Source: Paenibacillus amylolyticus (GTDB taxonomy: Bacteria; Bacillota; Bacilli; Paenibacillales; Paenibacillaceae). From it: 64,000 nucleotides of DNA. A model generated the notes under the pieces. The model saw only the letters and a list, made by a program, of their open reading frames with translations. It was not told where the DNA came from and did not search any database. Of this stretch, positions 2,560 through 63,729 are shown piece after piece (within the stretch, counting starts at the first letter, position 1; each line of letters starts with the position of its first letter). The stretch is from assembly GCF_029689945.1 (NCBI RefSeq), contig NZ_CP121451.1:2728001-2792000 (forward strand), in the 5' to 3' direction. The position numbers and the translations under genes were made by a program.

Positions 2560-4547
2560 TTGTGGATACATGGTAAGAGAAATCCTCAATTGTTACCATA
2601 ATTTTTCTTATTAATATATTATGTTTGAATTTGAATTTATCATCGCCTATAGAAGCTGCAGATTCAGATCCGTACGGTCCCAAGAAACAAGAAATATCTA
2701 ATACAATACAGTCGGTAGAAAGGGTAGCAAATCCAGGTGTTTATTGGTATCAGCTTGATAATGGTAGCTTCAGGGCAGATCATACCAATGGACCAACTTT
2801 CTCAGATAACCTTAACAGTAATTCATGTTCTAGACCATTCCCAGCTGAGAAAGAAATACCTAACGAGGTCGATTTTTCCAGATGGCCTGCTGAGTATTGG
2901 CCAGAATTCCAATCTCAGAGAATTACACAGCGAATGGTACAAAACATTCGTATTAAAAGCGTAGATTATCAAACAAGCAATAAGCAGTTATTCTATACTG
3001 GGGTTGGTACCACGGTTATAAGAGAAGGTAGTACTATAGTAAAAATCATTACCAAAACAGGGGGCTCACATCAAGTAACTGAGTGGGATGATTATGAGAA
3101 TGGTGGTAGAACAAATCAAGGTTGTCTTAAGCAAATAGTTGCCTACCATACACCAATGGACATTATTTGGGAAGGCGATCTGGTTGAAGAGAAAGAAATC
3201 GATGTAACACCAGATTCAACTTTAACAATCGGTCAGACAAAGCAAATGAAAGCCAATGTTAGTACGAGGCACTACGGCGAAACAGATTTTAACACTGGCA
3301 TCGACGTGTCACGAAGAGAAGCGGAGATCAAATGGTTTTCTTCTGACGAGTCGATTGCGAGTATAGAGTTGAAAACCGGAATGTTGAAAGCCGAAAGTTC
3401 GGGCACAGTCACTGTGCGTGCGATCTGGAACAATGGTACATATCTGATCTCGGATACTGCAACCATAACTGTCACGTCTGAGCCAGGGCTCGTTGTGAAT
3501 CTGCCGAATGCTTGTAAAGCCAATACCACACCGCTACAGGCAGAAGCCGTTCTAACCAAACCGGATCGCACTGTTCATAAACTGACGGCTCATCCCAAAT
3601 TGACCTGGCAGAGTTCGAATCCAACTGTGGCAACGATCGGCGCTGATGGCAAAATTACGACAAAAGGGATCGTGGGTAGCACCACTATTAAAGCCCATTT
3701 TCTTGATTCTACTCAACAACTGGATGAACAAGGGGCTCAGGTTCTTGAGGTGAAGGACTGCACGGATAATGGGGGAGATCCTGTGAATGCTTGCCCTGTG
3801 ACCATCAGCCCACCTAGTAGAGGAACGGTTATTGAAGCATCGGTTATGGACCCGTCTGTTCGAGGTGTGTTGAAGGCTGACGATCGGGGATCGGAGAAGT
3901 TCGATGTTACCCGTGGTATTCCGACTTCGGAAGATCTCTATGCCAATGTCATGGCGAAGGAATATCTGTTTCAGCACCGTTGGGTAAACATGACAGGAAC
4001 GGTGACTTACACCGTTAATGTGAAAAAGGTTTATCATAAAACCTGGACGATTCCGGGAAGAGCCTCTACTGGTGAAGGGGATCCAGGAACACCTGCTGAG
4101 CCCAGAGAACTTGACGTCCCTGGGGATAAAACCATGCAAGTAACAAGGACCTATAGCTATTGGCAGATCGATAATCTGGAGGTGTATAAGTTAAATGAGG
4201 CAAAGGTATCTAACTATGCGCTAGGTGGTTATGGTGATACCGTGACCCTAATGCCCAATTCATATACACCACCAACTCTGCAATCGGCTATGGATACTGC
4301 GGTTACCAATCATGTGAAACCTGCGCCATGTCAAGAAATTGATCTTGGCATCCAAGGGGTTCCGGGAGGTTCAACTGAACCTCTTACACCGGATGAAACG
4401 TCATTGTTTCAGTCTGAAGCTGAAGCGAAGGTTAGAGAGAACACGGTCAATAACGACAAGGTAATCTTTAATGGAGCGACGATTATGGACCCGGCTCCGG
4501 TAGAAAAATCAGCTCCGCAACCGGGAACGATCCCCAACCTGGCATGA
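2560..4547 (+). CDS. Large secreted Ig-like (BIG2) protein, N-terminal part; frameshifted
   Basis: The long open frame has a TTG at 2625, but the same frame is open back to a TAA at 2574 and encodes a hydrophobic segment (SSIVTIIFLINILCLNL) ending SPIEAAD, a typical signal peptide. A TTG at 2560, six bases after GGTGGTGAAG, starts WIHGKR and joins this frame if one A is missing near 2580. I therefore place the start at 2560. Two Ig-like group 2 domains follow (WFSSDESIASIE...GTVTVRA and WQSSNPTVATIGADGKIT), at roughly residues 215-305 and 307-400. The remainder is unrecognised. The frame ends with TGA inside ATGA at 4544. No ribosome binding site precedes that ATG and one missing G near 4541 would fuse it to the next frame, giving a single ~1213-residue protein. 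Confidence 0.75.
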
Positions 4548-6199
4548 TCGGGGATCTTGTTCTGTACCAGAACCGTCTGACGATCAAGAACACATTGGTG
4601 AACAAAGCCAACCAGCCGACCACGGGTGAGATTGCGTATGGACTGCTCCCCGGCAACATTAACGGAGGGCAGGATCAGAAGTTCCCCATTTTGGGCATCA
4701 ACTCGGTGACAGTCCATACTCCAGTTGTGAACTATGCCTGGGTGTCAGATGATCAGCCGCATAATCAGAAGACTACGCCTGATCCGACCAGAGCTGCACT
4801 TATTTTAGAGCGCCCGTTTATTGTACGAATCCCAACTTCTGGGCAGCACCTTGACGCTGCGAGTTACCCAGGCTATGGAAACCGTGATTACGCAAAATAT
4901 TTTCGAATCAAACAGGTTCGTTTTCCATTCGATGTGTATAACGCTGCCAGAAGCCAGTTTATCCCGGCCCTGACATGGGTGGATATTCCGGTAAATCAGT
5001 TAGACACCCCTTTTTATCTTCCTGTATGGGTAGATGAAGGGAACTATCAGATAGAGTTTCGTAATATCGCCGAAAATGCACCAGCAAACTTCACTGAACA
5101 ACAGGATGCCAACACGAATCTAACCCATCATGTTGCAGCAGATACCGTTGCTGTAGAAGTTATCGGACGATTGTATGATTTTCACATCACGGATATTTCA
5201 GACTACAACTGGGAGATTGTGTTCCGCAAGCGGGTGAGCAGCCCGGAACCAACGGGTGTGAGCTACTGGACTGGTGGAAACAGTATCGACGGAGATCCCC
5301 GAGGTAATTTGGCTCCCTATGTCCTGCCTATTCGTCCCGGCAGTCATCCGGTACAAGGCTTCCGAAATGCAGCGGTGAAGACGGGTTACCATTTCAAGTT
5401 TGATCTGAAAACCAAGGGCAATATGTTTGGAAAACAGGATGGTATCCGAATCACGCCAACGTTCTCTTTTGTGAGTAAAGACGGCACCGCCCGGCAAGAA
5501 GTGGATTTATATTACCATCGGGGACAGGAACGACTTATTCGTATCGGATCGGCACAGGATTTAGAGAAACGCTTTGTTGTGCTGAACTCACGATTACGGA
5601 ATGTACCGGGTACGGAGTTAGGTGATACAGCACGCTACCTGTATACTTATGAACTGTCGGAGGAGGAGCGCAATCAGGTTTCAATGGCGGAACATATGGT
5701 TCGTTTTGTAGATCAGACCTCTCATTATAAAACATGGGTAGGTCGCTATGACTGGATGATACTTCCTTCTCAGATCCGTACATTTATTGGCCCAAAAACA
5801 GATATTCCCTCCAGTGTTAATGTGGATCGGGCGAATGCAGCAATTCAGCGCTGGTATGGGGAGTATAGCTTGCCAGCTGATGTATATGCAGTGCCCAAAG
5901 GAACCGATCTCGAATCCCTTGCCAGACAAAATCGGTTGGATGAGAAGGCAACAGTATTTCTGAGGGACGGTTACATTGTAGTTAATTTCAATATCGAAAC
6001 GTTGCGCAGTGGCAATACGAATGCTCCCCATCTGCAATATATTCATGCACCGTTGATGAATCAATGGCAAATGGAAGGGTTTAATAAGAACCCCATAGAT
6101 GGCTTGGGAAGAAGCTGGCCGATGCAAGATGGGGACGTGGTTCTGTACCACGCAGATCAATCCAGCCGTAATGATTTCCAATCCCAAGTACCTCATTAG
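4544..6199 (+). CDS. Large secreted protein, C-terminal part (continuation of the preceding frame)
   Basis: 551 residues without signal peptide or membrane segment and without a ribosome binding site before the ATG. It is therefore better read as the C-terminal half of the preceding secreted protein after a one-base loss than as a separate gene. The composition is that of an extracellular beta-rich protein (many aromatic residues, Asn and Gly, no cysteine). The stretch from YDFHITDISDYNWEIVFRK to the DGIRITPTF segment resembles large Paenibacillus and clostridial surface proteins annotated DUF5704, which I recall only approximately. The function is unknown. Sitting next to an SLH protein, it may be an S-layer-associated component. 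A terminator follows the stop. Confidence 0.65.
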   Translation: MIGDLVLYQNRLTIKNTLVNKANQPTTGEIAYGLLPGNINGGQDQKFPILGINSVTVHTPVVNYAWVSDDQPHNQKTTPDPTRAALILERPFIVRIPTSGQHLDAASYPGYGNRDYAKYFRIKQVRFPFDVYNAARSQFIPALTWVDIPVNQLDTPFYLPVWVDEGNYQIEFRNIAENAPANFTEQQDANTNLTHHVAADTVAVEVIGRLYDFHITDISDYNWEIVFRKRVSSPEPTGVSYWTGGNSIDGDPRGNLAPYVLPIRPGSHPVQGFRNAAVKTGYHFKFDLKTKGNMFGKQDGIRITPTFSFVSKDGTARQEVDLYYHRGQERLIRIGSAQDLEKRFVVLNSRLRNVPGTELGDTARYLYTYELSEEERNQVSMAEHMVRFVDQTSHYKTWVGRYDWMILPSQIRTFIGPKTDIPSSVNVDRANAAIQRWYGEYSLPADVYAVPKGTDLESLARQNRLDEKATVFLRDGYIVVNFNIETLRSGNTNAPHLQYIHAPLMNQWQMEGFNKNPIDGLGRSWPMQDGDVVLYHADQSSRNDFQSQVPH

Positions 6200-6221
6200 A
6201 GAGAGGTCATTTTAACACTTC

Positions 6222-6267
6222 AAGAAGGCAGACGTGATGTGAATCCACATTGCGTTTGTCTTCTTTT
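6222..6267 (+). terminator. Rho-independent terminator
   Basis: AAGAAGGCAGACG pairs with CGTTTGTCTTCTT (two G-T pairs), extended by TGATGTG/CACATTG around AATC. The T-rich tail is weak but the stem is long. It ends the SLH/secreted-protein unit. Confidence 0.7.
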
Positions 6268-6390: not shown

Positions 6391-8437
6391 ATGATTGAAG
6401 AAGATAAACAGGAAGTATTGGTTTCAGAAGATACATACCAAGGTAGAGATTTAGGTGTCACAATAGAAGCGCAGACCTTTCGCTTCAAAGTCTGGTCACC
6501 GTTCGCCGTTCAGATGGAACTACTTCTGTATCCTCCTTTGACAGGGGGACCCCGGAGGAAGAGCCGAATCAACTGAAACAGCAGGCGTTACCGATGCAGA
6601 AGATAGAACAAGGCATCTGGGTTCTGGAACTGGAGGGTGATTTAAATAGCTACCGTTACATGTACAAGCCTACTTTCGAAGATGGACATTCGACCAATGC
6701 TGTAGATCCTTACGCACGAGCAGTGACCATGAATGGAGAAATGGGTGTAATTGTAAGTCTGGAGAAGACACATCCGAAGGGATGGAATGAGGATATTCGC
6801 CCGGAATTGAAAAGTCCTGTAGATGCAGTCCTATATGAACTGCATGTACGTGATTTTTCCATTCACCCTTCATCGGGGATAACGAATAAAGGCAAATACA
6901 TGGCTTTTACCGAGACGGGGCTGCGTGATTCGGAGGGCAACACACTAGGGATCGATCATTTGGCTGAACTCGGGATTACCCATGTGCATTTGCTACCCGT
7001 ATTTGATTTTGCGACGGTGGACGAATCCAGAGTAGATGGTGATACGACGGATGGTTCCAACTATAATTGGGGGTATGATCCGCTCCATTACAATGTCCCA
7101 GAAGGGTCCTATGCATCACGTGCAGATGATCCGGAGACACGAATCCGTGAGTTCAAATCCATGTTGCTTGCCCTGCATAACAAGGGAATAGGCGTCATTA
7201 TGGATGTGGTATACAATCATACGTTTGATACGGCAGGCAGCTCATTTGAAAAACTGGTTCCAGGGTACTACTATCGTCAAAATGCTGATGGGACCTACAG
7301 CAATGGTTCAGGTACAGGCAATGAGGTAGCCACTGAACGCGCGATGGTACGCAAGTTTATCATTGACTCGGTCCGTTACTGGGCAGAGGAGTATCATGTG
7401 GACGGTTTTCGATTTGATCTGATGGGCCTGATTGACCAAACTACGATGAAACAGCTTGCAGCGGAATTGCACACCGAAGTGTCATCTTCCATATTGTTAT
7501 ATGGTGAACCATGGGGCGCACTGGATACGCCTCTTGAGGATGATATGACCCTGAAAGGAACCCAGCGCGGGGCGGGCTTTGCTGTATTTAACGATAATTT
7601 CCGCGGCGTGATCAAGGGAGACAGTGATGGAATGGGTACGGGATTTGCGACGGGCGCAAAGGGGAAAGAAGACGAATTGTGGACTGGCGTCCGGGAGCCA
7701 TTCAGGATTTTGCGGACGGTCCATCCGAGACGATTAACTATGTAACGGTGCATGATAATCTTAACCTATGGGACAAAGTCGCACATACACAAGGACTCCA
7801 TGATACGCTGAATTTCCTCACCTATGACGAGGATGGACATATTCGTGGTTGCGAAAGTGTGAAAGAGGCGGTAGAGAAGGCCAAGCCTTACCTGCAGATT
7901 GATCCGGAACACATCCTGGAGAATGAGACGGTTCGGCGTTGTTTGCTTGCCAATGGTATTGTCCTAACCTCCCAGGGGGTTCCCTTAATCGCGGCTGGAG
8001 ATGAGCTGCTTCGCAGCAAATACGGGGATGCCAACAGCCACCAGAGTGGGGATGTAGTCAATGCCATACATTGGGAGCAGAAACAGCTGTTCAAGCCGGT
8101 GTTTGACTATTATCGTGGGTTAATTTTTCTTCGGCGGGAGCATCCAGTATTTCGGCTTCGTACGCGGGAAGAGATTGAGAAGCATGTACGTCTAATCGAA
8201 AAAGCTGATGGGCTGTTGGTATACGAATTGAACGGTACTGCAGCCAGCGATTCGTGGGAACGCATTGTCGTCATCTATAACGCGGCAAAAGAAAACCGCG
8301 ACATCTCTGTTCCCACAGGGACATGGAATGTGATTGTAGAAAACGGACAAGCAGGCGTGGATCCGATACGCATCGTACATGACGGACAGGTACATGTGAG
8401 TGCACTATCCATCACGGTGATGTATTCGAAATCCTGA
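6391..8437 (+). CDS. pulA: Type I pullulanase (GH13, CBM48), two frameshifts
   Basis: Debranching enzyme cleaving alpha-1,6 bonds in pullulan and starch limit dextrins. The corrected length is 682 residues. The N-terminal CBM48 module (FRFKVWSPFAVQ) is followed by the pullulanase signature YNWGYDPLHYNVPEGS and the GH13 regions DVVYNHT, DGFRFDLMG (nucleophile Asp), LYGEPWG (acid/base Glu) and NYVTVHDN. The frame breaks near 6544-6548 (five G, six expected) and near 7693-7695 (GGG, four expected). Adding one base at each restores colinearity with the paralogue downstream. The ATG at 6391 follows GAGAGGGG. There is no signal peptide, so it is probably cytoplasmic and acts on imported maltodextrins or glycogen. 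Confidence 0.85.
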
Positions 8438-12873: not shown

Positions 12874-13394
12874 ATGTTTGATCCAACGGTGTATGACAAT
12901 CTGAAAGTCGGGTTTGAGAATTATCTCTATGATATGGATAACCTGGATGAACGGATCCAGATTACGGGGCGCAAAGATCGGCTGGAGATGGCTGTGATGT
13001 CCAGAGAGTTCACGTTGCAATTTTCTCTCAGGAATCGCCCGGAAGTAACAGGAGAAGTTCTGTTAAGCAGTTCTCTGGAGGAGCTTGCAGCGGAGATACT
13101 GGAGACGCCGGGTGCGCATCCAGGTTGCCGTTTGGAGCTGCGGTTTAGTATGGTTGTGAAGGAGCCTGAGGAGAAGTGCCCGGCTATTCTTCCGATAATG
13201 CAGAAGAGCTGGCCAGAGCAGAGGATATGCCAGAACGTCCAATATATTTTTGATGAACAGCCAATGAAGTATAACGTCACAGCTCATGTTTATTTCGACC
13301 GCAGTGTGAATGAAGACCAGATGGGGATATTGCTGAACTTTGTGAGCATATGGCAAATGTGATGGATCAATTATTACAGTTGCATAACCAGTAA
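12874..13394 (+). CDS. Hypothetical protein, frameshifted near its end
   Basis: Begins MFDPTVYDNLKVGFEN and is rich in charged residues, without signal peptide or membrane segment. I do not recognise the family, but it looks like a cytoplasmic protein conserved beside other housekeeping genes. The open frame stops at 13362. One extra G in the GGGG run at 13323-13326 gives a longer natural C-terminus (DIAELCEHMANVMDQLLQLHNQ over 22 residues) ending at TAA 13392-13394 just before the terminator, for 173 residues in total. The start ATG is preceded by AAGAAAGTAGGG, a modest ribosome binding site. Confidence 0.6.
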
Positions 13395-14680: not shown

Positions 14681-15042
14681 ATGAGTACCAAATTATTTGC
14701 AGCGATGTATGGAATGGAACACTTCCATGGCGTGCAAGCTTTACATGTGGGGGATACCGTGTATCTCGTCAAAGATCCAGATAATCGCTTGGATCATCAA
14801 GCGATTAAGGTGGTTATTCCACCGATCGGAGCCGTAGGTTATATCGTTAATGATCCGCTTATTGTACCGCATGGATGTTGGATCGGGCAGCATTCTACGA
14901 TGTGTTTCATCAACTAACATGTGCCAAAGTACGATTCATGATGAAAGACATGGTTATTATGGAGCTGATAGAGATGACCCATATTCCTGTTCCACATATG
15001 GATTCTTTGATTACGGGATGGCAATTTCGTGAAAAGGCTTGA
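14681..15042 (+). CDS. Stand-alone HIRAN-domain protein, frameshifted
   Basis: HIRAN domains (found alone or in Rad5/HLTF helicases) bind DNA ends or modified DNA. The N-terminal part shows the pattern FHGVQALHVGDTVYLVKDPDN, D-x-x-A-I-K-V and GAVGYIVND typical of the fold. The frame ends early at 14917. One missing G near 14890 restores AFYDVFHQLTCAKVRFMM and a C-terminus ending FREKA at TGA 15040-15042, 120 residues in total. ATG 14681 follows AAAAGGAG by seven bases. It sits 32 bases downstream of the WYL regulator. A role in DNA damage handling is inference from the domain only. Confidence 0.7.
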
Positions 15043-15097: not shown

Positions 15098-16201
15098 TCA
15101 TTTACGGATGAGCCTGGTATAGGTAGCTTCCAGATGTATGGCGGTTCTGGCCCAACTGAAGTGTGCCCTTGCACTGTCTCGGCCGGACTTTCCTAACATC
15201 TTGGCAAAAGAGGGGTTGCTTGCGAGTTTGTGCAGACAAGAGGCGAAACGTTGGGGATGCTGATAAGCGGTGACAAGGTATCCATTGACACCTGATTCAA
15301 TAATCTCACGAATGCCTCCGTTATCAGAAGCAATGACGGGCAAGCCTGATGCCATCGCTTCAACATTAACCAGGCCAAAAGCTTCATGTTCTTGAGAGGG
15401 GCACACCAGACAATCGACGGCCCGATACAACCGATCGATATGCTCATGGTTTATCTGACCACGGAAGGAAACATGGACTTTTAGCTTATGGGCAAGTTCG
15501 CGTAGTTTACGCACGTAATATGGAGGTCCTTTGCCTGCAACAACCAGTTGAACAGGCATCTGTCGCTGAAGAATGGCAGTTGCACGAATTAATACGTCTA
15601 CACCTTTTCCAGGGATAAGCCTGCCGACATAGAGAATAGAGAATGGTTGGGTTATTCCAAATTGGGTACGCAGTTGAACCTGTTCATCGGCGGATTCAAC
15701 AGGCCTGAACCGGCTCAGATCTGCACCCAAGGGTACAACACTCATTCGGCGTTTTACCAACGGGAATCTGCGGCCTAGCCTTTGTCTCAGGGATTGGCTG
15801 TTGACGGCAATCCAATCAGCCTTTTTCAACGATGTGAGTCTGGAAGGTCCGGGCTGGGCAAACGTTAAGGAGTGAAGATAGAGTACAACGGGAGTATGTG
15901 GAAAAGCTCGTTTGACGGTCGCCATACTTCTGGGCCTGTTATCGACCTGAATGACATCATAGGGTTGTTTGGATAACAGACGAATGACTGCTTTGGTATA
16001 CCTGTCAGGACTTGATGCAGGAACGCGTTGAATGGTGATTCCATCGATCTGTTCTGTGGTGGTGAGACCTTCCATTTGACGACTTATGATGGTCACCTGA
16101 TGGCGGTGTGCAAGTTCGCGAGCGATTCCCAGTATACAGATTTCCACGGAACCGTTGCCTGGCACAGGTAATTTTTCGGGTGCAACCATAGCAATTTTCA
16201 T
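15098..16201 (-). CDS. Glycosyltransferase family 4, CotSA-like
   Basis: 367-residue GT-B fold enzyme that transfers a sugar from a nucleotide donor. The start MKIAMVAPEKLPVPGNGSVE is close to B. subtilis CotSA (YtxN), a spore-coat-associated glycosyltransferase. The C-terminal donor-binding half has LYVGRLIPGKGVDVLI and the E-x7-E motif within EAFGLVNVEAMASGLP. No signal peptide or membrane segment is present. The gene is read alone on the minus strand, convergent with the HIRAN gene and divergent from the DUF3817 gene. AAGGAGCC lies before the ATG. A role in spore surface or cell-surface glycosylation is inferred from the similarity. Confidence 0.82.
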   Translation of the reverse strand: MKIAMVAPEKLPVPGNGSVEICILGIARELAHRHQVTIISRQMEGLTTTEQIDGITIQRVPASSPDRYTKAVIRLLSKQPYDVIQVDNRPRSMATVKRAFPHTPVVLYLHSLTFAQPGPSRLTSLKKADWIAVNSQSLRQRLGRRFPLVKRRMSVVPLGADLSRFRPVESADEQVQLRTQFGITQPFSILYVGRLIPGKGVDVLIRATAILQRQMPVQLVVAGKGPPYYVRKLRELAHKLKVHVSFRGQINHEHIDRLYRAVDCLVCPSQEHEAFGLVNVEAMASGLPVIASDNGGIREIIESGVNGYLVTAYQHPQRFASCLHKLASNPSFAKMLGKSGRDSARAHFSWARTAIHLEATYTRLIRK

Positions 16202-16421
16202 TCATGATCAGGCTCCTTCTTGTCCGAGATCTGTAACACTTTTCGTCATATATCTTATGAGAAGCTGAGGCATTTGGCTCCTGCGAAAAGGTAGGTAATC
16301 CACCTATTTGAGGGCGCAGGAATAATCTGCTGCATGGAATGAAGCGGAGATATTTGGCTTTTGTGATATACTGTACGGGAACAATTAAGTTCGTTACATG
16401 TATAGAAGCAGGAGGAAAATA

Positions 16422-17007: not shown

Positions 17008-17828
17008 ATGTTGGAAGTTTCATTATTATTGGAATATGGGTGGGTACTGGCTGTCTTAGTTGTTCTGGAAGGATTACTTGCAGCAGATAATGCCTTGGTA
17101 CTCGCCATTATGGTTAAACATTTACCTGAAGAAAAGCGCAAAAAAGCGTTGTTCTATGGTTTGATGGGTGCATTTGTTTTCCGTTTAGGTTCGTTATTCC
17201 TGATCTCTTTCCTCGTCGATGTATGGCAGGTACAAGCGATTGGTGCCCTGTATCTCCTGTACATTTCGATTAACCACATCGTTAAAAAGGTACTGGGGAG
17301 TCGCAATAAGACAGATGAAGCAGCTGATTCAACGCCTAAGAAACCAAAAAAACAATCCGGTTTCTGGATGACCGTTTTCAAGGTCGAAGTAGCGGATATC
17401 GCATTTGCAGTTGATTCCATCCTGGCAGCCGTTGCTTTGGCCGTGGCGTTGCCACCAAGTGGATTGCCTGCAATTGGGGACTTGACGGTGGACAGTTTAT
17501 CGTTATCTTCCTCGGTGGATTCATCGGTCTTGTGATTATGCGTTTTGCAGCCTCATACTTTGTAAAATTGCTTCATTCCCGTCCAGGGCTTGAAGTTGCG
17601 GCTTTTGTGATTGTAGGTTGGGTAGGGGTTAAGCTGGCAGTTATTACACTTGCACACCCTTCATTGGGTGTTCTGGATGAGCATTTCCCGGAAAATAAAA
17701 TTTGGAAATTTGGATTCTATATTGTACTGATCACCATTGCGGTATGTGGTTGGTTCCTGTCTTCCAAAGTTCCTGCAAAAGAAGACGAAAATCCGGTTGA
17801 AGAGTTGGAAAAACAAGCAGGACTGTAA
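17008..17828 (+). CDS. TerC-family membrane protein, probable Mn2+ exporter; frameshifted
   Basis: 273 residues after correction, with about seven membrane segments, matching the TerC/Alx/YkoY family that exports Mn2+. The conserved ligands include EGLLAADNALVLAIM in the first half and EVADIAFAVDSILAA in the second. The open frame stops at 17535 because one G is missing near 17484 (GACTTGACGG read for GACTTGGACGG). With it, GGQFIVIFLGGFIGL joins VIMRFAASYFVKLL. AAGGAGGAG precedes ATG 17008. Regulation by the upstream yybP-ykoY riboswitch is strongly indicated. Confidence 0.88.
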
Positions 17829-18327: not shown

Positions 18328-19796
18328 ATGTTTATGAATACAGAATTTAATTTATTTGCCAACCCCAATGAAATCACAGGGGCCTACCGGCATGAAGTGA
18401 AATTGCCTTCAGGGGACCTGACCGTATATGCTGCGCAACAACTTTTTTCCTCGCTCGATTACAAGGTATTCGAAATGGCGAACAATAATCTGCAGATTCC
18501 GGGAATCTCTTATATGAGTTACACGCCTGACGTGCATGTCGGTGTAGGTACCTGTATTGGAACAACAGCCGTGTGGGATGCGCAGAACGGATACGTATCT
18601 CCCTCCATCGTGGGCAGTGACATCGGCTGCGGCATGCGAGTGCATATGACAAACTTGCACAAGGACGAACTGAAGGACATCAAGCTTCGCCGCAAACTCG
18701 TGAAGGCTATTGAGAAAGTATTGCCGATGGAGGCGAACCAGCGAGGTCATTACTCGGATATCAGACTGGAGCATATCGTTCGTAAAGGGCTGCATGGTTT
18801 ACCCAAAAAGTATATTCCGGACAGCTATACCCCGAAAAAATCAACCTCGATTACGCATGTGGAAAGCAGCAAGTTCAGTTACGATGAGGATGTGTTAAAC
18901 CACGTTCCTGATATGACATGGCATCGTTCGCATCGGCAGCTGGGAACACTGGGTGGCGGGAATCATTTTGCCGAGATCCAGGCGATTGAGATTGCTGAAG
19001 AGAATCGTGAAATTGCCGAAGCTTGGGGATTGTATGATGGACAGATCGTGGTCATGATTCATTCCGGCTCTCGTGCGTGGGGTGGTTATGTAAGTCAGAC
19101 GAGTTCGTCAGCAATCGCCAAAGTCATGCAACGGCTTAACCTGGGAACATCCGATCCGAGACTGGTATTTGCTCCATTGGAGCACGCGGAAGGTCGTCAT
19201 TATGTGAACATGATGTATTCTGCATTGAATTATGCGGTTGTCAATCGACACCTGATTGCGTATGCTATTCGCGAAGCATTCCGGGATGTATTTGGCTCCA
19301 AATGTGAATTCCGTACGTTGTACGATCTGATGCACAACTATGCCTGGGAGGAGTCTCACGCAGACCAAGGTTCCGTTTTTGTACATCGTAAAGGAGCGAC
19401 ACGTGCGTTGCCGGCAGGGCATCCGGACAATCCCAAGCCGTATCTGGCAACAGGCCATCCGGCACTTATTCCGGGTCCATGGGGACTGCTTCATACATTA
19501 TGGTAGGTCAGCCGCAGGGTGCTGATAATTATTATTCAATATGTCATGGTGCGGGCCGCATCCGTTCACGGACGGCAACGAAACGATTGGTTTCCGTAGA
19601 AGATTTTGCTTCTGCACTGGGTGTCGGTACAGCAGATGAGATCGTGGTTAACCAACGCTCACTTGAATCCATTATTGATGAATCACCTCAAGCTTATAAA
19701 AATGTAGATGAAATTATAGACAGTGTTACCGGCGCAGGCCTGGCTCAAGTTGTAGCCAAATGCAAACCGCTTGCAGCGGTGAAGGGAGCGAAATAA
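18328..19796 (+). CDS. rtcB: RtcB-family RNA ligase, frameshifted
   Basis: RtcB joins RNA 2',3'-cyclic phosphate or 3'-phosphate ends to 5'-OH ends using GTP and Mn2+, in tRNA splicing or RNA repair. The corrected protein is 489 residues. Metal and nucleotide residues are visible: SDIGCGMR, LGGGNHFAEIQ, MIHSGSRAWG, and the guanylylated histidine in CHGAGRIRSR. The frame breaks near 19476 because one T is missing (GGGTCCATGG for GGGTTCCATGG), which restores IPGSMGTASYIMVGQPQGA. ATG 18328 follows AGGAAGGA by six bases. Its stop overlaps the start of the AAA ATPase gene by one base (TAATG), so the two are translationally coupled. Confidence 0.88.
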
Positions 19797-21100
19797 TGAC
19801 AGTAAACACAAAACAAACCGATCCAACCCAGGCGATCTATACCTATGATGAACAACATGATACTCGAATTCGAGTGGAAGGGTACGCCATCTATTCAAGG
19901 CTGATCCGTGGAATCAGTGAGGCACTCCATCAGCGCTACGGCATTGAATATAAGCTATATGCCAGTTCTGACCCGAACAATGAATACTGGGAGTTACTCC
20001 GGGAAGACTTGCAGAATGGCAGTGCTGAAGTGGAGTTGGTAGCCCGCATATTCGAAGATCTGGAGCTTCAGACGTTGCATTACAACGATGATGGCGATGT
20101 GCCCACGTACGGTGTGCATTACTCCATTCGTAACAACGTATTTGCCTATCCGAAATGGGGCGTAGCTCTTGTCCGTGTTCCATTTTTCCGAGAGAACGGA
20201 ATCTACAGTGAAGACTTTGTTTTTGCTGTCGGTGATGAGGAGATGAAGCAATTTCTGGGCAGTGTCCGGGAACGGGAACGTCAGCAAAATATGAAAAAAG
20301 TGACGGTATACACTGATGCCCGTAATGGCAGCGACCGTCATGTCGAATCCATTACTCGTTCCGTGGGAAGAGATGATGTTGTGCTCTCGGAAGAGATCAA
20401 ACAGGATATTTTCCGCTCGCTGGATCAGTTCTTCGAAGCGGATCGTTCCTTCTACAGAGATTATGATATCCCGTACAAACGGGGAATTCTATTATATGGA
20501 CACCCCGGAAACGGCAAGACCACGTTGGTGAAATCCATTGCGGGAAGTATCCGGGACCGGCTGCGTATTGGCAGATAACGGAGTATACCAACAGTGAATC
20601 GGTGCGTGAAGTATTTGAGGCTGCCAAACGGCTCGCACCGATGGTACTGATCATTGAGGACATCGATTCGATGCCGGATGAAGTGCGTTCCTTTTTCCTG
20701 AATACATTGGATGGAGCGACGTCGAAAGAAGGCATTTTCCTGATCGGGACTACGAATTATCCGGAGAAAATAGATCCTGGCCTCATGAACCGTGCTGGAC
20801 GGTTTGACCGGGCATACGAAATTCCGTTGCCAGATGAGGCGCTGCGCTTGCAATATTTGCGTCAACGTGGCTTCACCGTATTCGCAGGTGAAGAGGGAAC
20901 GATAGAAGCAGCTCGTCTGACCGATACGTTTTCTCTTGCGCAGCTGAGGTGAGTTGTATGTGAGCGCTGCGCTAGAATGGCATCAGAATGGACAGACCGA
21001 TATTGTGAAAGTCATTCAGTCCATGCGTGGTGAGCTGGACAAGAGCCATAAACATACTTGGCTGGCACAGCCAGGGAAGGGTCGTGCAGGCTTTTATTGA
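19796..21100 (+). CDS. AAA-family ATPase (YjoB-like), two frameshifts
   Basis: 434 residues after correction. The ~220-residue N-terminal region resembles no enzyme I know. The AAA module has Walker [10 protein letters not shown], Walker [13 protein letters not shown] and the second region of homology [22 protein letters not shown] with its arginine fingers. The overall form recalls B. subtilis YjoB, a chaperone-like single-ring AAA protein. One C is missing near 20551 (restoring [16 protein letters not shown]) and one G is extra near 20948 (restoring [16 protein letters not shown]); the product then ends GRAGFY at 21100. Coupling to the RtcB gene suggests it remodels the ligase or an RNA-protein substrate, which is inference. 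Confidence 0.8.
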
Positions 21101-25085: not shown

Positions 25086-26390
25086 ATGACAACTGCGCTG
25101 CATCTGAATAAAAAAATCGTTCGGCGTTTTTTGCTGCATACGCAAGCTTTACTGGGACGTTGGCCCGCAGTTTCCTTACCTTCGGGACCCGATCAAGTTC
25201 TGAGTTTGATTCGCTCCCTCGGCTGCGTGCAGATCGATCCTGTGGCTGCTGTAACCGGAAACCAGCATTTGGTGCTGGGTGCTCGTGACCCGGGTTATAC
25301 GGCTGACAGCCTTAATGCGCTGCTCAGTGAACACAAGGTGTTTGAATATTTTGCCAATGCTGCTTGTGTCATACCGATCGAGGATTATGCACTCTTTGAA
25401 CCTGTGCGTGCCCGGTTAAGGGAGCGTCTGGCTCCGTCCCTGCAAGGTCTGGAGAAAACAGTACAGCATGTGTTACAGCGTTTGAAGGAAGAAGGACCTT
25501 TACCATCAAGAGCCTTCCGTGCTGTTGAGCGGGTAAGTGGTTACTGGGACAGTGCAGATGTGCCGAAGACGAAGGATACCACACTTGCACTGAATCTACT
25601 TTTAGACTCTGCTGTGATTCGTGTGGTGGCGAGGCAGGGGAACGAACGTTATTTTCATATTACCGAAGACATATTGCAGCAACAAGGACTTCCATTGGAA
25701 GAAGATACTGATATGTTGGTCCAGAGACAGGCTCTCATGGATAAATACATTCATGCGTATCGCGTCGTGGATGCCCGGGATCCCCGTCTGGGTTGGCTAA
25801 AATCTACAGCTGCTGAACGACGCGCCGATATTGCAGCCCGTGTGTCAGATGGACGAATGATTCCGCTTAAGGTGGAGGACGTGGCAAACCCTTATTATAT
25901 ACGTGCTGAAGATGAGGATATGCTAATGCAAATGGAGAGGGAAGAGCCACACTATGATCCATCTGGCCCGGTCCGTTTCCTGCCGCCACTGGACAACCTG
26001 TTATGGAGAAGAGAACGGATTGTCGATTTATTCGATTTTCATTATAAATGGGAGATTTATACGCCAGAGGTGAAAAGAACCTACGGTTATTATGCCATGC
26101 CGATTCTTCATGGTGATCGGTTGATCGGACGCATGGACCCGCGACTTGATCGCAAAACGGGAGTCCTTACAGTTCGCTTGTTGTCCATGGAAGAAACGGC
26201 TCCACCTGTGGCGGAATGGATGAACGATTTTCGGGAGGGGCTGCAATTCTTTGCAACCATGCATGGGGCGCGTTCCATCTCTATTGAGAAGACGGTACCG
26301 AAAGAGCTGAAAAGCAGCTTAAATCGATATGAGCAGGGGATATACGAAAAATGTATTGAGACGGAAATTGGAATGGATAAGAGGATCTAG
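25086..26390 (+). CDS. YcaQ/AlkZ-family winged-helix DNA glycosylase-like protein
   Basis: 434-residue HTH_42 family protein. YcaQ/AlkZ enzymes unhook interstrand DNA cross-links with a catalytic QxD motif, here CVQIDPVAAV at ~53-62. Tandem winged helices follow (RFLLHTQALLG, FEYFANAACVIPIEDY, LPSRAFRAVE), and a C-terminal beta-rich domain with FLPPLDNLLWRRERI and HGDRLIGRMDPRLDRK, both typical. The ATG at 25086 follows GAAGGGAAG. It adds to the DNA repair genes of the window (AlkD-like, Ogt, HIRAN). A terminator follows at 26431. Confidence 0.82.
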   Translation: MTTALHLNKKIVRRFLLHTQALLGRWPAVSLPSGPDQVLSLIRSLGCVQIDPVAAVTGNQHLVLGARDPGYTADSLNALLSEHKVFEYFANAACVIPIEDYALFEPVRARLRERLAPSLQGLEKTVQHVLQRLKEEGPLPSRAFRAVERVSGYWDSADVPKTKDTTLALNLLLDSAVIRVVARQGNERYFHITEDILQQQGLPLEEDTDMLVQRQALMDKYIHAYRVVDARDPRLGWLKSTAAERRADIAARVSDGRMIPLKVEDVANPYYIRAEDEDMLMQMEREEPHYDPSGPVRFLPPLDNLLWRRERIVDLFDFHYKWEIYTPEVKRTYGYYAMPILHGDRLIGRMDPRLDRKTGVLTVRLLSMEETAPPVAEWMNDFREGLQFFATMHGARSISIEKTVPKELKSSLNRYEQGIYEKCIETEIGMDKRI

Positions 26391-31520: not shown

Positions 31521-32335
31521 TCAGACAATACCAAGGCGCATACGATAAGAAAAGAGTACTGTTCTGGATTGTCCGTCAAATACACGATTAGCCAACGCTT
31601 TGAACTCGTCGGCAGCCGTTAATAGCTCATCCGCTCCGAGCTTCAACGCCGTTTGCAAGCCGCCTTGGCTCAAGGCCAGGTTCACGTATCGGTCTGCATC
31701 AAAGGTCTCGTGGTGATGAAACACGATTTCCCGCACATATCGGAACAGACCGGACTCCTGAATCTGCTGCAGATGCCCATCCTTGCTCCATTTGTGTGCC
31801 TGGCTATCCTGGGGAGCCAGACTGGCTGCTCGTTGATCTGCTTCCTTATTCAGCTTCAGGTAAGCTTGTTCTAACTGCCAGTCTAACATTGGCGGCCAGT
31901 CGCAATCGTAGGCAGCAAATATGCCCCCTGTGCGAAGGACACGTGCGAACTCGCGTAGTGTGGCTTGCGGCTCCATCCAGTGAAATGACTGGGAGCAGGT
32001 CAGGACATCGACGCTGCCATCCGGCAGTCCGAGGTCGTGAGACAATCCCGACACGAATCGCAGGTTATCCGGCTTCCCGGCAGATTCCCACTTGGATTCT
32101 GCTACAGACCTCATGTCATCACTCGGTTCGAAGCCGATGATGCGTTCTGCCTCATTAAGCCAGATCCACGAGGATAAACCGGTGCCACAGCCAATATCTG
32201 CGACCATACGCGGAGTGCTGCCAAGATATGTGGTTAGAATATCCACCACTTCAGTGGGGCAGCTGGTCGGTTCTGATCGTATAACGTACCGAATCCTTTG
32301 AAACGTTCCACATTGTTGCGCCTAATGTCTTGCAT
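31521..32335 (-). CDS. Class I SAM-dependent methyltransferase, frameshifted
   Basis: 271 residues after correction. The product begins MQDIRRNNVERFKGFGTLYD, then the SAM-binding motif I VADIGCGTGLSSW and further Methyltransf_11 motifs (VDVLTCSQSFHWMEPQATLREFARVLRTGG in two parts), as in ubiquinone/menaquinone-type small-molecule methyltransferases. The substrate is unknown. The open frame lacks the N-terminus because one G (plus strand) is missing from the GGGG run at 32256-32259; restoring it joins QNRPAAPTEVVDILTTYLGS. AGGAGG lies eight bases before the ATG on the minus strand. Confidence 0.83.
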
Positions 32336-33376: not shown

Positions 33377-34873
<1,497 letters not shown>

Positions 34874-35029: not shown

Positions 35030-35694
35030 TTATGCCAGCCTTCTGCTTTGCAGTTGGGACATGCGCTCCAAATGCCGCCGGTAAAACCATATGCATGTGG
35101 AGAGCCAGCATCCACTTAAGAAGTATCCGCCAACAATATCACTTGGATAATGTACACCCAGGTAGATACGACTTATACCAATGGTCAGTATAAAGATGGC
35201 GCTGGCAATAATCATCAGCACACGTCCGGTGACGGTGGGTACATGTTTCCAGATGAGAAAAGCCAGTCCACCATAAAGGCTAAATGCGGCCATGGAATGT
35301 CCACTGGGAAAGCTATAGCCGCTCACTTCGATGATTCGGTTAATGGTAGGTCTCGCACGTTGGAATACCAGCTTAAGCAATGCATTTAACAGGGTTGAAC
35401 CGGCGAGCACACAAGCCAGGAAGAGTAGTTCGCGTTTGTGTCGCAGCCAAACGTATAACACAATCATCGCAATGATTGTAATGAAGACCACGGGCATTTC
35501 GCCGCCGATCCAAGTGAAAAACTGCATGAATTGTGTCATGCCGGGGGATTCCAACCCCTGAATCCAGCCGATTAGCGTATCATCAAATCGATGAATCTGG
35601 TTGTCGCTGATGGACAGCGCGATGCTTATAAAAGCGATCATGCATAACGCTGCAACGAGCAGCGGATTGAGATGTTCTTTTTCAAGTTGTGCAT
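35030..35694 (-). CDS. PAP2-family membrane phosphatase, frameshifted near its start
   Basis: 221 residues after correction, five or six membrane helices. PAP2 motifs are KLVFQRARP, YSFPSGHSMAAF and SRIYLGVHYPSDIVGG with the catalytic histidines. Such enzymes dephosphorylate undecaprenyl pyrophosphate or phosphatidic/phosphatidylglycerol phosphates on the outer membrane face. The frame opens internally at 35641. With one more T in the T-run at 35678-35682 the protein starts at ATG 35694 (MHNLKKEHLNPLLVAALC), eleven bases after CGGAGGAA on the minus strand. Confidence 0.87.
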
Positions 35695-37444: not shown

Positions 37445-38025
37445 TTAGATCAATCCGGATACTATAATGGCTGAGTATAACAAAAAAGGGCCATGAGAAT
37501 ACTCAGTAATTTTTGGTGTCGATTCAGCAGCGTTCTGAAAACCGTGCCAAACACAACCCAACTGGAATAGGCGAGAAAACCAATAAAGGTAATGAGCAAC
37601 ACGAACAGAAACGATGAGAAGGAACTTTGATAAAAGGGCAATACATAGCTTGGAATGACCGTGAACGTAAACAAGACCACTTTTGGATTCACAAATTGCA
37701 TAATGAAACCGTTCCAGAAACCGGTCACTTGTTTCGGTGCATCCTCGGTGGTACCCATTTTGTAAATCTGGTAAGCCAGATACACCATGTACAGCCCGCC
37801 GACAATCTGCATCACCTTCAGGATTCCGGGCAACACACCGGCAAGAAGGTGATTAAGAAACGCTGATGCGGCAAGCAACAGACCAAACGCCAGTGTAGCT
37901 CCCCAGACATAACGCATTGTTTTTCGTGCGCCAACGATCTGTGTAGAAGAAAGAATTACGATATTGCTAGGGCCGGGGGTGAATGTAACAACGATGCAGT
38001 AGATTAAAAAAGATGCAAGATTCAT
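37445..38025 (-). CDS. LysE-family amino-acid/metabolite exporter, frameshifted at its end
   Basis: 193 residues after correction, about six helices. LysE/RhtB signature: TPGPSNIVILSSTQIVGARK at the start, then WGATLAFGLLLAASAFL, MQIVGGLYMVYLAYQIYKMG and FWNGFIMQFVNPKVVLFTF. The open frame stops at 37462. One more A (plus strand) in the run 37482-37487 gives the normal LysE ending MALFLLYSAIIVSGLI at 37445. It is co-transcribed with the AraC regulator. Confidence 0.86.
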
Positions 38026-38231: not shown

Positions 38232-39238
38232 ATGAAAAAAATGCTGCTGGTATACATTTTACTAATCTCAGCCTTTGCGCTGTATGTGTTGAGATTCGAA
38301 TACAACAGTCAGGTAAACAGTTCATGGGAGGACCGGGGGCTGCGCGGTGATATCGGGGAGACGTATATCATGATTACTTTCCAGTCAGGATTGGAGTATT
38401 GGAAGAGCCCGCTCAAAGGCTTTGAAGATGCCGGGGATGCGCTGGGTGTAACCGTAGAATACCGCGGTGCTACCCGGTATGATGCGAAGGAGCAGACCAT
38501 GGTAATTGAGCAGGCCATCGCTCGTAAACCGGCGGGCATTGCCATATCTGCAATCGATCCGCAATCGCTAGTTCCCGCGATTAACAAGGCAATCGAAGCT
38601 GATATCCCTGTGGTATTATTTGACGCGGATGCACCGGGCAGCCAGGCCTATTCTTTTCTTGGGACAGACAACTATAAGTCGGGTGTAATGGCCGCCGATA
38701 AAATGGCTGAACTGCTGGGTCGTGAGGGAAAGGTCGCGGTTGTAACCTCGCCAGGACAACAAAATCATGAAGAACGGACAAAGGGCTTCCGCGATACGAT
38801 CAAGACGAGATACCCTTCCATGCAGGTCGTTGAAGTGGCAGACGGACACGGTGATGCGATGGTATCCCGAGACGAAACGCTGAGAATGATGAAGGAACAT
38901 TCGGAGCTTGCGGGTATTTTTGTAACTGAAGCTACCGGAGGAGCAGGAGTGGGGGAAGCCGTTCAGACTTCGGGGACAGCCATCCATTGCAGATTATTTC
39001 GTTTGATACGAATAAGGATACATTGGACATGATCAAGAATGGTACAATCTCCGCTACGATTGCACAGGGAACCTGGAATATGGGATATTGGTCACTTCAA
39101 TATTTGTTCCATCTGCATCACCAATTAACGGTTCCTGCCCCTTCCTCATCCGGTGAGAATGCACCACTTCCCGTGATGGTAGACACAGGGATCTCTGTGG
39201 TGACACGCTCCGATGTGGATGATTACTATGCCAAATAA
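38232..39238 (+). CDS. Membrane-anchored periplasmic-type sugar-binding sensor (XylFII-like), frameshifted
   Basis: 335 residues after correction. An uncleaved N-terminal anchor (MKKMLLVYILLISAFALYVL) is followed by a family 4 (RbsB-like) sugar-binding fold: GLEYWKSPLKGFEDAGDALG, KPAGIAISAIDPQSLVPAIN, FLGTDNYKSGVMAADKM, FVTEATGGAGVGEAVQ. In clostridia XylFII-LytS-YesN sense xylose, and the same order (binding protein, kinase, regulator) occurs here. The frame breaks at 38972-38975 (GGGG, five expected), restoring TSGDSHPLQIISFDTNKDT. ATG 38232 follows GAGGAAGTGAACGG. It overlaps the kinase start by 11 bases. Confidence 0.83.
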
Positions 39239-48256: not shown

Positions 48257-48965
48257 GTGGAAATAGATATCAGAACACAATTGCTCAGCATGGTTGAGCC
48301 GGAGTATCAGAAATTCTCGGCTGCGCTGATTCCCAACATCACGAATGTACTAGGTGTAAGGTTGCCCGCCTTGCGAAAGATTGCCAAGCAGATTGCTGCG
48401 GGGGACTGGCGCACGTATCTGGAGACGGCAGACGATGAATATTTTGAAGAAGTGATGCTGCAAGCGATGGTCATTGGGCATGTTCAGGCTGATCTGGACG
48501 AGCTGCTGAAGGCTATTGAAGCATTTGTACCGAAGATTGACAACTGGTCGGTGTGCGACAGCTTCTGTGCGGGACTGAAATATACGAAGGTGCATTCGGA
48601 GCCGATGTGGGCATTCTTGCAGCCGTATCTGACATCAGATCAGGAATATGAGATTCGGTTTGGCGTGGTCATGCTGTTGAATTTTTATCTGGATGAGATA
48701 TATTGATCGGGTTCTAATCGCATTGGATCGGATCAGGCACGAGGCGTATTATGTGAAAATGGCGGTTGCGTGGGCGATCTCGATGGCTTATGTGAAACAA
48801 CCTGAGGTGACTCTGCGTTATCTGAACCATAATACGCTGGACGATTTCACGTATAATAAGGCACTTCAGAAAATCACGGAATCGTATCGGGTTGATCCGG
48901 AGAGCAAGCAGATGATCCGCAGTATGAAACGTAAGGTGAAAAAGCAGGTTATCTCCAAGTCCTAG
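48257..48965 (+). CDS. DNA alkylation repair protein (AlkD-like HEAT-repeat glycosylase), frameshifted
   Basis: 235 residues after correction. AlkC/AlkD-type HEAT repeats remove bulky alkylated bases. GVRLPALRKIAKQIAAGDW at the N-terminus, EVMLQAMVIGHVQADLDELL, DNWSVCDSFCAGLK and YYVKMAVAWAISMAYVK are typical. The frame shifts near 48698; one extra A (GAGATATATTG for GAGTATATTG) restores FYLDEYIDRVLIALDRI. GTG 48257 follows AGGAGG by ten bases; the ATG at 48249 leads to an immediate stop. It is followed after 36 bases by ogt, a repair pair. Confidence 0.85.
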
Positions 48966-51128: not shown

Positions 51129-51538
51129 ATGAAGATTGAATATGCAACGGAAGCGGACTACGACTACATCATGGATAGAGATCGGCATATCCATCAAGCA
51201 CTTGTGAAAACGAAGATTCGTGAAAAGAAATATTCATCCTCTGGAGCGAGGACGATGGATCAAGAATTGGATGGATGAGGTACGGTTACTTTTGGGACAA
51301 CCTTCCCTTCATGAATATGATCTGGATTGATGAACCCTATCGAAGCGGTGGAATTGGCAAAAAAGTGGTGCATCACTGGGAGAATCTAATGAAGCAACAA
51401 GGCTTCGATACCGTGATGACTTCAACGCAATCAGACGAACATGCCCAACATTTCTATCGAAAGCTGGGGTATGTTGACGCAGGGGCTCTGTTGCTGGATA
51501 TACAACCTTTGGAGATTATATTGATCAAGAAAATCTAG
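51129..51538 (+). CDS. GNAT-family N-acetyltransferase, frameshifted
   Basis: 136 residues after correction. The product begins MKIEYATEADYDYIMDRDRH and contains the acetyl-CoA loop YRSGGIGKKVVHHW and HAQHFYRKLGYVDAG. The frame breaks near 51226 where one G is missing (GAAAAGAAATATTC for GAAAAGGAAATATTC), restoring REKEIFILWSEDDGSRIGWM. CTGAAGGGAG precedes ATG 51129. First of three consecutive GNAT genes. The substrate is unknown. Confidence 0.82.
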
Positions 51539-54415: not shown

Positions 54416-55359
54416 ATGAGTTTAACGGAATGGTCCACAGATATACTTCAATATGATCTGTCGGATGAATATTCGATTCGCAGAGCTGATTTTGCCGAAT
54501 GGGGATTATATTGCACGGTTTATTATGATATGCGTTATGTCGGATTTTTCAGAGAAGAAGAGTTCAGTTCTTCCAAGATCAGTGCGTACTGGATTTACAA
54601 GGGGGAAAGCAAAATAGGTGGCGTGAGAATGGAGCCTAACCGGATGTATCATTTGTTTTTTATCCCGCCATTCCAGCAGTGCTTTGAGGTATTGAAGCTT
54701 CTGAAGCATACATTAATACAGTGGTCGGATCGCACTAAACGCATTCTGACCTTTGAGATTCTGCCGGACCAAGTCGATCTGTTCGCAAGAGCCGGGTTCT
54801 GGCCAGTGGAGTTCAGATGTCGCTGGATGCAGCGGCCTACAGATCATTTTGACATCGAATGGGACAACAGGGTAACCGTGAAAAGTCCAGAGATTATCGA
54901 GAGCGAAACTGGCAACAGAAGATATGTGAATGAAGCTGAAATTGGCAGATGTGACATGGAGAGTTTTGCAGGAAGTCTGGAAGCGACACGAAGAAAACAT
55001 ACCACTCTTTCAGATTTTATACCAAACGACGACCCTAATTATACGAATGAAATTCTGACCCACGCTTCAACGCTTGTATACGACAAGGAAACAGGGCAGC
55101 TTATTGCCAATTGTCGCTTGTGCTTGCAGGATAATCAGGCGGCTGTATACAGTATCGGAGTGCTCCCGCCTATAGAGGCAGAGGTCTGGCTACGCTGATG
55201 TTACAGAGAGCATTAAATGAACTTAAGGGGAAGTATCCTGTTCTGCGATTATACGTGATGCAGGGGAATGATGCCGAGTCCGTGTATCTGAATCTGGGCT
55301 TTATTCCGGGTGTGCAGGAGATTCAGACGATGTACATTCCAGAGGAGGAATCACAATGA
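54416..55359 (+). CDS. Two-domain GNAT-family acetyltransferase, frameshifted
   Basis: 314 residues after correction. The first half is a degenerate GNAT-like lobe (MYHLFFIPPFQQCFEVLKLL); the second half is a normal GNAT domain with STLVYDKETGQLIANCRLCL and the acetyl-CoA loop AYRGRGLATLMLQRAL. That loop is broken near 55168 because one G is missing (CCCGCCTAT for CCCGGCCTAT). The corrected frame ends at TGA 55357-55359. GAGGAGGAATG precedes ATG 54416. Confidence 0.8.
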
Positions 55360-60601: not shown

Positions 60602-61092
60602 ATGGAAACTTTCTTTCGTTACAACTGGATCGTGCGTGAGCAATGGTATGCGTGGTGTGAGGATGTACCGCTTGAAGAATTGCTTCGGCCTCGAACGGGC
60701 GGAGTAGGCAGCATATTAGAAACGTTGTTTCATATCATTGATGTAGAGTGGAGCTGGCTTCAGTTGCTTCAGGGCAAACCAGATGATGCAGAAGATTACG
60801 CAAACTACCAGAACCTTGCAGCAGTAAGACAATTGGATCGCAGATTACGTCCGGATGTGGAGGCATTTGTTACAGCATGGGAGTCGAGTATGGAAAAAGA
60901 GCTTATATCGATCTTCGCTCGGCTGGTAAGCCTGATACATATTCATGGGGAGAAGTCATGCGACATGTGATCGCCCATGAGATTCACCATATGGGGCAGC
61001 TATTGGTATGGGCCAGAGAATTGGGCAAGCAGCCGGTATCCGCCAATGTCATTGGCAAAGGCCTGATTGTACCTGACTACCCTGGGACCTGA
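60602..61092 (+). CDS. DinB-family protein, frameshifted
   Basis: 163 residues after correction. Four-helix DinB/YfiT-like fold with metal-binding histidines in ETLFHIIDVEWSWLQLL and VIAHEIHHMGQLLVW. Such proteins act in small-thiol-dependent or damage-related reactions. One G is missing near 60925 (CTGGTAAG for CTGGGTAAG), which restores LGKPDTYSWGEVMRH. AAAGGGGAATAT precedes ATG 60602. A further DinB fragment lies at 55755-55928. Confidence 0.85.
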
Positions 61093-62664: not shown

Positions 62665-62679
62665 TTGTAAGCGTATTCA
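62665..62679 (+). promoter_or_regulatory. cre box upstream of the GH10 xylanase gene
   Basis: TTGTAAGCGTATTCA matches all fixed cre positions and shares TTCATTGTAAGCGT with the cre of the sugar ABC operon. A TATAAT at 62652-62657 just before it would place the box at the start of transcription, suited to roadblock repression. Confidence 0.7.
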
Positions 62680-62722
62680 ACAGACGGTATGATGGATAAA
62701 AACGGGCAGGGAGGAATTGTAA

Positions 62723-63729
62723 ATGCCAACAGAAATTCCATCGCTACATGCTGCGTACGCGAATGCGTTCAAAATAGGTGCTGCTGTACATACCGGAATG
62801 TTGCAGTCCGAAGGAGAATTTATCGCCAAACACTTCAATAGCATTACAGCTGAAAACCAGATGAAATTCGAAGAAATTCATCCGGAAGAGGGGCGTTATG
62901 CATTTGAGGCGGCGGATCAACTTGTTGATTTTGCTGTTGCCCAAGGAATTGCGGTTCGGGACATACTTTGGTCTGGCATAATCAGACATCGAAATGGGTT
63001 TTCGAGGATAGTTTGGGTGCTCCCGCTTCCAGAGAATTGTTATTATCCCGCTTGAAGCAACATATTGATACGGTAGTAGGTCGATATAAAGGGCAAATCT
63101 ATGCGTGGGATGTGGTCAATGAAGCCATTGAAGACAAGACCGACTTATTCATGCGGGACACCAAGTGGTTACAGCTAGTGGGAGACGATTATTTGCTGCA
63201 AGCATTCAGCATGGCTCACGAAGCTGATCCAAATGCTCTGCTTTTCTATAATGATTATAACGAGATAGATCCGGTCAAACGGGAGAAAATATACAATCTG
63301 GTTCGGTCCTTATTGGATCAGGGAGCGCCTGTACACGGGATTGGGTTGCAGGGGCATTGGAATATTCAAGGCCCTTCAATTGAGGATATCCGAATGGCGA
63401 TTGAGCGTTATGCTTCACTGGATGTGCAGCTGCATGTTACCGAGCTGGATCTATCCGTGTTTCCTTACGAAGATCGTCGAACGGACCTCACTGCACCGAC
63501 TTCGGAGATGGCTGAGCTACAGAAGCGTCGTTATGAAGAGATCTTCAAGCTGTTCCGTGAGTATAAATCATCCATTACCTCTGTGACGTTCTGGGGCGTA
63601 GCGGACAACTATACCTGGTTAGATCATTTCCCGGTACGCGGACGTAAGAATTGGCCATTTGTTTTTGATCAACAGTTGCAGCCAAAGGAATCATTTTGGC
63701 GTATAATTAAAGATAACGAAAAAGCATAA
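62723..63729 (+). CDS. Intracellular GH10 endo-1,4-beta-xylanase, frameshifted
   Basis: 335 residues after correction. (beta/alpha)8 enzyme with ITAENQMKFEEIHPEEG, acid/base Glu in AWDVVNEAIEDK, LFYNDYNEID, GIGLQGHWNI and nucleophile Glu in LHVTELDLSVF. No signal peptide, so it is of the intracellular type that cuts imported xylo-oligosaccharides. The frame breaks at 62958-62960 (GGG, four expected), restoring VRGHTLVWHNQTSKWVF. GGGAGGAATTG precedes ATG 62723. Confidence 0.92.

Follow-up and report, generated by a model that had tools for sequence, protein, structure and literature searches.

Frame-breaking indels in a Paenibacillus amylolyticus genome record are probably errors left in the assembly consensus

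Introduction

Bacterial hypermutators that are deficient in mismatch repair acquire one-base indels that favour homopolymers, and their essential genes stay open. In insect endosymbionts poly(A) slippage is known, which is confined to the long A runs of AT-rich genomes. In the Kastor paper (PMC12007338) a long-read bacterial draft is described as having 23.3% pseudogenes, these were mostly due to frameshifts and went with deletion errors tied to homopolymers; the figure was 5.6% after correction. Here we analyse a stretch of 64,000 bases from Paenibacillus amylolyticus (the window), which covers positions 2728001-2792000 of contig C1 in the assembly GCF_029689945.1, called G000 below. An earlier note, made from the letters of the window, had described about twenty genes broken by single-base frameshifts in this stretch.

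From sequence comparison we conclude that the frame breaks are almost certainly base-level errors left in the assembly consensus, and not mutations of the living strain. This explanation, which the earlier note had also preferred, is supported by a similar density of breaks in three regions of the assembly, by an excess of one-base losses, by the dependence of the losses on homopolymers, by the splitting of essential genes and by the absence of the breaks from related genomes. The assembly comprises 6,832,320 bases in three contigs, the largest of 6,824,844 bases, and its completeness estimate is 95.84 as against 99-100 for 17 other genomes sampled from the same genus.

Frame breaks in the window and their absence from relatives

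The window was compared with the corresponding stretches of four relatives (G016, G011, G008 and G002), from which intact open reading frames (ORFs) were taken. In the DNA alignments every relative that could be aligned differs from the window, in a way that changes the frame, at 19 of the 20 listed sites or close to them; there are four such relatives at 17 sites and three at 60925 and 62959. These differences comprise 17 one-base losses, a one-base gain at 20948 and a two-base loss at 48698. The breaks fall in 17 genes, as 6546 and 7694 share one gene and 20551 and 20948 another. The count of about twenty genes therefore comes down to 17, one of them with a two-base loss. Eighteen sites had been thought to need an added base and two a removed one, which holds for the 17 losses and for the gain at 20948; the two-base loss at 48698 results in the same frame as the one-base gain that had been proposed there. 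Two of the listed positions are off, as the break given as 35680 lies near 35663 and the one given as 60925 lies near 60893. The remaining site, 2580, is a claimed break (2560..2600, forward strand) upstream of the ORF that starts at 2625, and it has no DNA alignment in any of the four relatives; their N-termini are too divergent there for a judgement, and similarity begins only at about 2589-2658, in frame with this ORF. Also omitted from the list were a gain of four bases near 16200, the loss of a base near 26310 and, in DNA that is mostly noncoding, about six one-base losses (12037, 14677, 30009, 32387, 58663 and 62641); the latter are found against every alignable relative, of which there were three or four.

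When the genes of the relatives were aligned to the window, frameshift junctions numbered 18 for G016, 19 for G011, 16 for G008 and 19 for G002 (60, 62, 46 and 58 genes, respectively), whereas the relatives give 0-4 junctions against each other in 12 comparisons. Chance or divergence thus does not produce the pattern. The 16-19 junctions include a few places beyond the earlier list, and sites 33468 and 37485 are detected only by DNA alignment. A short way downstream of site 13324, G008 differs by one base at two more places, and no frameshift junction is listed for this genome at the site. Junctions near 12000, 42736, 42792 and 52469-52507 were set aside, as they lie upstream of genes or within doubtful ORFs.

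The nearest named relatives, judged by a 966-amino-acid protein of the window, are 91-95% identical to it among 80 loci. They are Paenibacillus sp. PAMC 26794, P. polymyxa ISL-58 (as filed), P. xylanexedens DSM 21292, Paenibacillus sp. SZ31 and P. xylanexedens DE0301. We compared the nine sites from 4541 to 20948 with the 20 Paenibacillus loci, of these 80, that are at least 72% identical; two of the 20, PAMC 26794 and DE0301, were judged to be identical with the genomes G002 and G008. In 165 of 166 alignable comparisons the locus is out of frame with the window, and the sole exception involves a larger neighbouring indel. Together with the four relatives, this demonstrates that the relatives compared have continuous frames. 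Alignment with close Paenibacillus relatives had been proposed in the earlier note as a way to check the breaks, and at the 19 sites it upholds them as absent from the relatives compared; the same indels in independent isolates, which had been named as a finding that would tell against errors, are not shared in those 165 comparisons.

Two of the named loci deserve separate mention. P. polymyxa ISL-58 is 95% identical over 966 amino acids and lies near the P. xylanexedens genomes, and it may have been filed under the wrong species. In Paenibacillus sp. PCH8 (unitig_0, 10001-12897) the match to the gene for the 966-amino-acid protein spans 2,897 bases, one below a multiple of three, and this record may hold similar errors.

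The same kind of break elsewhere in the assembly

To the junction counts we added gene-wise alignments, in which an event is private to one genome. In the window, 35 of 69 ORFs are common to all five genomes when G011 serves as the reference, and 37 of 70 when G002 does. With the first reference the window has 15 one-base losses, one one-base gain and two other non-triplet indels, and 16 genes are hit as against 0-2 in the relatives; with the second, 15 of the 37 genes are hit as against 0-1. Three-way alignments of G000, G011 and G016 were made for two other regions. Near the origin (400 kb of G000, 400 kb of G016 and 360 kb of G011), 248 of 295 G011 ORFs are present in all three genomes and give 250,937 aligned bases, and at 5.7-5.9 Mb 126 of 152 ORFs give 133,552. 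Dropped before counting were ORFs absent from some compared genome (47 of 295, 26 of 152, and 34 of 69 or 33 of 70) and indels with poorly conserved flanks. Certain of the counted ORFs may be spurious, and the set includes a repeated ORF of 114 amino acids that presumably lies within ribosomal RNA operons.

Near the origin G000 has 81 private one-base losses and 12 gains, compared to 5 and 8 in G011 and 6 and 1 in G016. A private non-triplet indel is present in 68 of the 248 G000 genes (27%), and in 12 genes of either relative. At 5.7-5.9 Mb the one-base losses and gains are 47 and 6 in G000, 6 and 2 in G011 and 1 and 2 in G016, with 42 of 126 genes hit (33%) in G000 as against 9 in G011 and 3 in G016. 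Over the three regions together, the one-base indels private to G000 comprise 143 losses and 19 gains, in 421,278 aligned coding bases (0.38 per kb), while the pooled totals for G011 and G016 are 21 and 11. When all non-triplet private events are counted, the window has 0.49 per kb, the origin region 0.39 and the region at 5.7-5.9 Mb about 0.42. The earlier note had stated that housekeeping genes are hit as often as accessory ones, which the window cannot show on its own as few such genes are present there; in other parts of the assembly, core genes are among those broken.

Form of the indels

The rate of loss depends strongly on the length of the run. Near the origin, for run lengths from one to seven, there are 0.15, 0.33, 1.5, 4.1, 30, 65 and 47 losses per 1000 runs, a climb of 430-fold from length one to length six; runs of seven have 2 losses in 43 runs and runs of eight have 0 in 4. 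Homopolymers are however not the whole story, since 34 of the 81 origin losses sit in runs of one or two bases. In the window the same is seen: five-way gene alignments place 15 one-base losses, 3 of them in runs of at least five and 8 within runs no longer than two. The statement that many breaks fall in homopolymers is thus correct only in part, and its wording goes too far for the window. We searched the surroundings of the 34 short-run losses for 5-mers, and none survives correction over 512 words (best P 2.9e-4). Miscalls linked to methylation were considered on this basis, and we claim no motif for them.

Events per gene are mildly over-dispersed, the chi-square per degree of freedom is 1.38 and 180 genes are free of events as against 170.9 expected from a Poisson distribution. 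In the broken genes, substitutions at the first, second and third codon positions make up 0.162/0.092/0.746 in G000, 0.165/0.086/0.749 in G016 and 0.157/0.094/0.749 in G011. These fractions match those of the relatives, therefore selection is not visibly relaxed in the broken genes. A length divisible by three in every corrected gene, offered earlier as evidence, follows by construction and is none.

Essential and mismatch-repair genes

DnaA and RpoB are indispensable to a cell. In G000 dnaA is a single gene spread over two overlapping frames, the assembly has no further full copy of it, and it is 1346 bases long compared to 1347 in two relatives. The only copy of rpoB is in two frames, of 853 and 401 open codons. 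The gyrB gene adjoining dnaA is in three pieces, and no match to the gyrB family attains the cut-off of 882.4 bits; the other near-full-length match to this family scores 852 bits, which is under the cut-off, and is probably parE. The evidence for the gyrB split comes from the pairwise test and the family search, the start differs and a comparison of lengths is unusable. A further gene, which we take to be guaB from our own reading of the sequence, is also split. The splitting of single-copy essential genes is the strongest argument that the record, and not the strain, is at fault.

The mismatch-repair genes mutS and mutL are each split as well, by the same kind of break that is itself in doubt. 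At about 0.4 breaks per kb roughly one break would be expected in a gene of the length of mutS, so these splits do not by themselves speak for a mutator.

Weighing of the explanations

If the breaks are errors, the source is probably a long-read assembly that was insufficiently polished. Homopolymer lengths would have been under-called in the reads and the error would have persisted into the consensus. We infer a long-read platform because one contig holds 6.82 of the 6.83 Mb and from the shape of the errors. Given a uniform density, and noncoding DNA affected to the same degree, the whole record may contain some 2,600-2,900 such errors.

Several observations weigh against this explanation or limit it. 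Each site was judged by comparison with relatives, and no single one is proven to be an error. As the relatives too carry private one-base events in coding DNA, about a tenth of those counted in G000 may be genuine or due to noise in the alignments. When genes near the origin are compared pairwise, there are 126 junctions (98 of 346 genes) for G016 genes against G000 and still 57 (54 of 391) in the reverse direction; this test is unpolarised and cannot tell which genome changed, and for that reason the three-way test was used. A strict test on whole DNA finds 17 private one-base differences in the window (15 losses and 2 gains) and 20-30 in each relative. Its rule is uneven, as differences of the window had to be at one position in every relative and those of a relative in one only, and it includes noncoding DNA, so that gene-wise alignments replaced it. 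The density is also uneven when genes are divided into thirds by conservation, with 0.635, 0.177 and 0.342 events per kb from the least to the most conserved, the most conserved genes being hit more than the middle third; the value for the least conserved may be too high owing to misalignment or to a few real events. Over the three regions G000 has 18 private nonsense substitutions that are in frame and G016 has 9 (zero in G011 by construction), and a minority of the genes may truly be decayed or be spurious ORFs. Finally, rpoC is intact.

The higher count of nonsense substitutions and the concentration of events in the least conserved third would fit natural decay, in which many accessory genes are becoming pseudogenes. 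One-base indels nevertheless exceed nonsense substitutions by nine to one (162 to 18), the codon-position spectra of the broken genes equal those of the relatives and essential genes are hit, which makes decay very unlikely as the general cause, it may account for a few per cent of the events. The earlier note had raised the possibility of a strain with an indel mutator phenotype. Real mutations following the loss of mismatch repair would fit the preference of the losses for long homopolymers and the split state of mutS and mutL. Yet the splitting of dnaA, of the only rpoB and of the gyrB next to dnaA is lethal by established knowledge, slippage is rare in the short runs where 34 of the origin losses sit, the mutS-length expectation given above needs no mutator, and more than a quarter of the compared genes are hit in both of the other regions. 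We regard a mutator as extremely unlikely.

Programmed ribosomal frameshifting or transcriptional slippage, by which the genes would be functional as they stand, agrees with the protein similarity that runs on both sides of the breaks detected as junctions. The relatives encode these genes in one frame, however, so there is no conserved recoding site; no 5-mer common to the short-run losses survives correction, and a slippery run is absent at many breaks. The chance that recoding explains the breaks is close to nil, and the suggestion of programmed frameshifting in the earlier note falls with it. A combination of the two, a mutator that has lost mutS and mutL, carries thousands of one-base losses and survives because recoding or slippage is widespread at the essential genes that are broken, has a probability just as slight as that of a mutator by itself. 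Slippage cannot rescue DnaA and RpoB given the many breaks without a slippery run.

Errors in the consensus remain by far the best account, and the breaks most likely carry no biological novelty. Annotation based on ORFs is expected to report about a quarter to a third of the genes of this record as split genes or pseudogenes, and the strain might be taken for a mutator on account of the broken-looking mutS and mutL. Studies of pan-genomes, gene loss or pseudogenes should omit or flag the record until it is polished.

The broken genes of the window

Unless stated otherwise, the breaks below are on the forward strand and are seen both as junctions with the relatives and in the DNA alignment; the nine listed ones from 4541 to 20948 are seen in the named loci as well. 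The first lies at 4530..4547, in a gene that is one ORF of 1219-1228 amino acids in the four relatives; its piece at 2625-4544 has no NCBIfam match. A type I pullulanase-like gene (682 amino acids in relatives) is broken twice, at 6543..6549 and 7692..7695. Two pullulanase-like genes are adjacent here (6594-8437 and 8900-11800), with 60% identity in one part and 44% in another, and only the first is split. Unnamed genes of 171-174 and 120-133 amino acids in relatives are broken at 13322..13326, where the junction is found with three of four relatives, and at 14882..14890.

A glycosyltransferase-like gene on the reverse strand, whose family matches are below the cut-off, contains near its start the omitted four-base gain (16197..16203, by DNA alignment with four of four relatives). 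The gene of a YkoY-family membrane protein (290-291 amino acids in relatives) is broken at 17475..17484 and an RtcB-like gene (487 amino acids) at 19470..19485. An AAA-ATPase gene of 446 amino acids in relatives has two breaks, at 20549..20551 and 20946..20948, the second is the only one-base gain among the listed sites. The omitted one-base loss at 26309..26310, found by DNA alignment against four of four relatives, is at 98% of the length of a gene that has 415 amino acids in three relatives.

Three of the next genes are on the reverse strand. These encode an S-adenosylmethionine (SAM)-methyltransferase-like protein (271-284 amino acids in relatives, break at 32255..32264), a PAP2-phosphatase (242-243 amino acids, 35663..35668) and a LysE-type translocator (193 amino acids), the last broken near its 3' end at 37481..37487 by DNA alignment with four of four relatives. 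A GH1 glycosidase gene on the forward strand is broken near its start, at 33466..33470, again by DNA alignment with all four. The gene of a periplasmic sugar-binding protein (345-346 amino acids in relatives) is broken at 38969..38975. The two-base loss is at 48694..48703, in a gene of the DNA-alkylation-repair family, and is found against four of four relatives. Two unnamed genes follow, one of 142-144 amino acids in relatives with a break at 51222..51230 and one of 314-328 amino acids, without a Pfam match, with a break at 55163..55170. The last two are a DinB-family gene (159-167 amino acids, 60893..60898) and a GH10 xylanase gene (333-334 amino acids, 62958..62960), each break is seen against all three alignable relatives.

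The two small contigs of the assembly, C2 and C3, are 3,533 and 3,943 bases long and have closely similar ORFs in common. By eye they look like fragments of related prophages, with helicase-like and sigma-factor-like ORFs. A megablast search of both against 50,697 phage records found no match. We considered whether they could be spike-in control DNA that would reveal the sequencing platform, this was rejected on account of the prophage-like ORFs and the lack of a match to those phage records.

Comparison with known systems

The frameshifted genes of insect endosymbionts resemble those of this record in that the flanks of the breaks are conserved. In G000, unlike the endosymbionts, 4-kb steps have a GC content of 43-50% and a run is missing at many breaks. 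Hypermutators share with it the one-base indels that favour homopolymers, whereas here single-copy essential genes are split. The closest likeness is to the long-read draft (PMC12007338): frameshifts dominate, deletions are tied to homopolymers, about a quarter of the genes are called pseudogenes and the completeness estimate is lowered. The draft differs in that, by the same account, its deletion errors are most numerous after runs of four to five and few are at non-repeated bases, while the losses near the origin of G000 include the 34 in runs of one or two. For that draft both reads and a correction were available, here the comparison is made with relatives alone.

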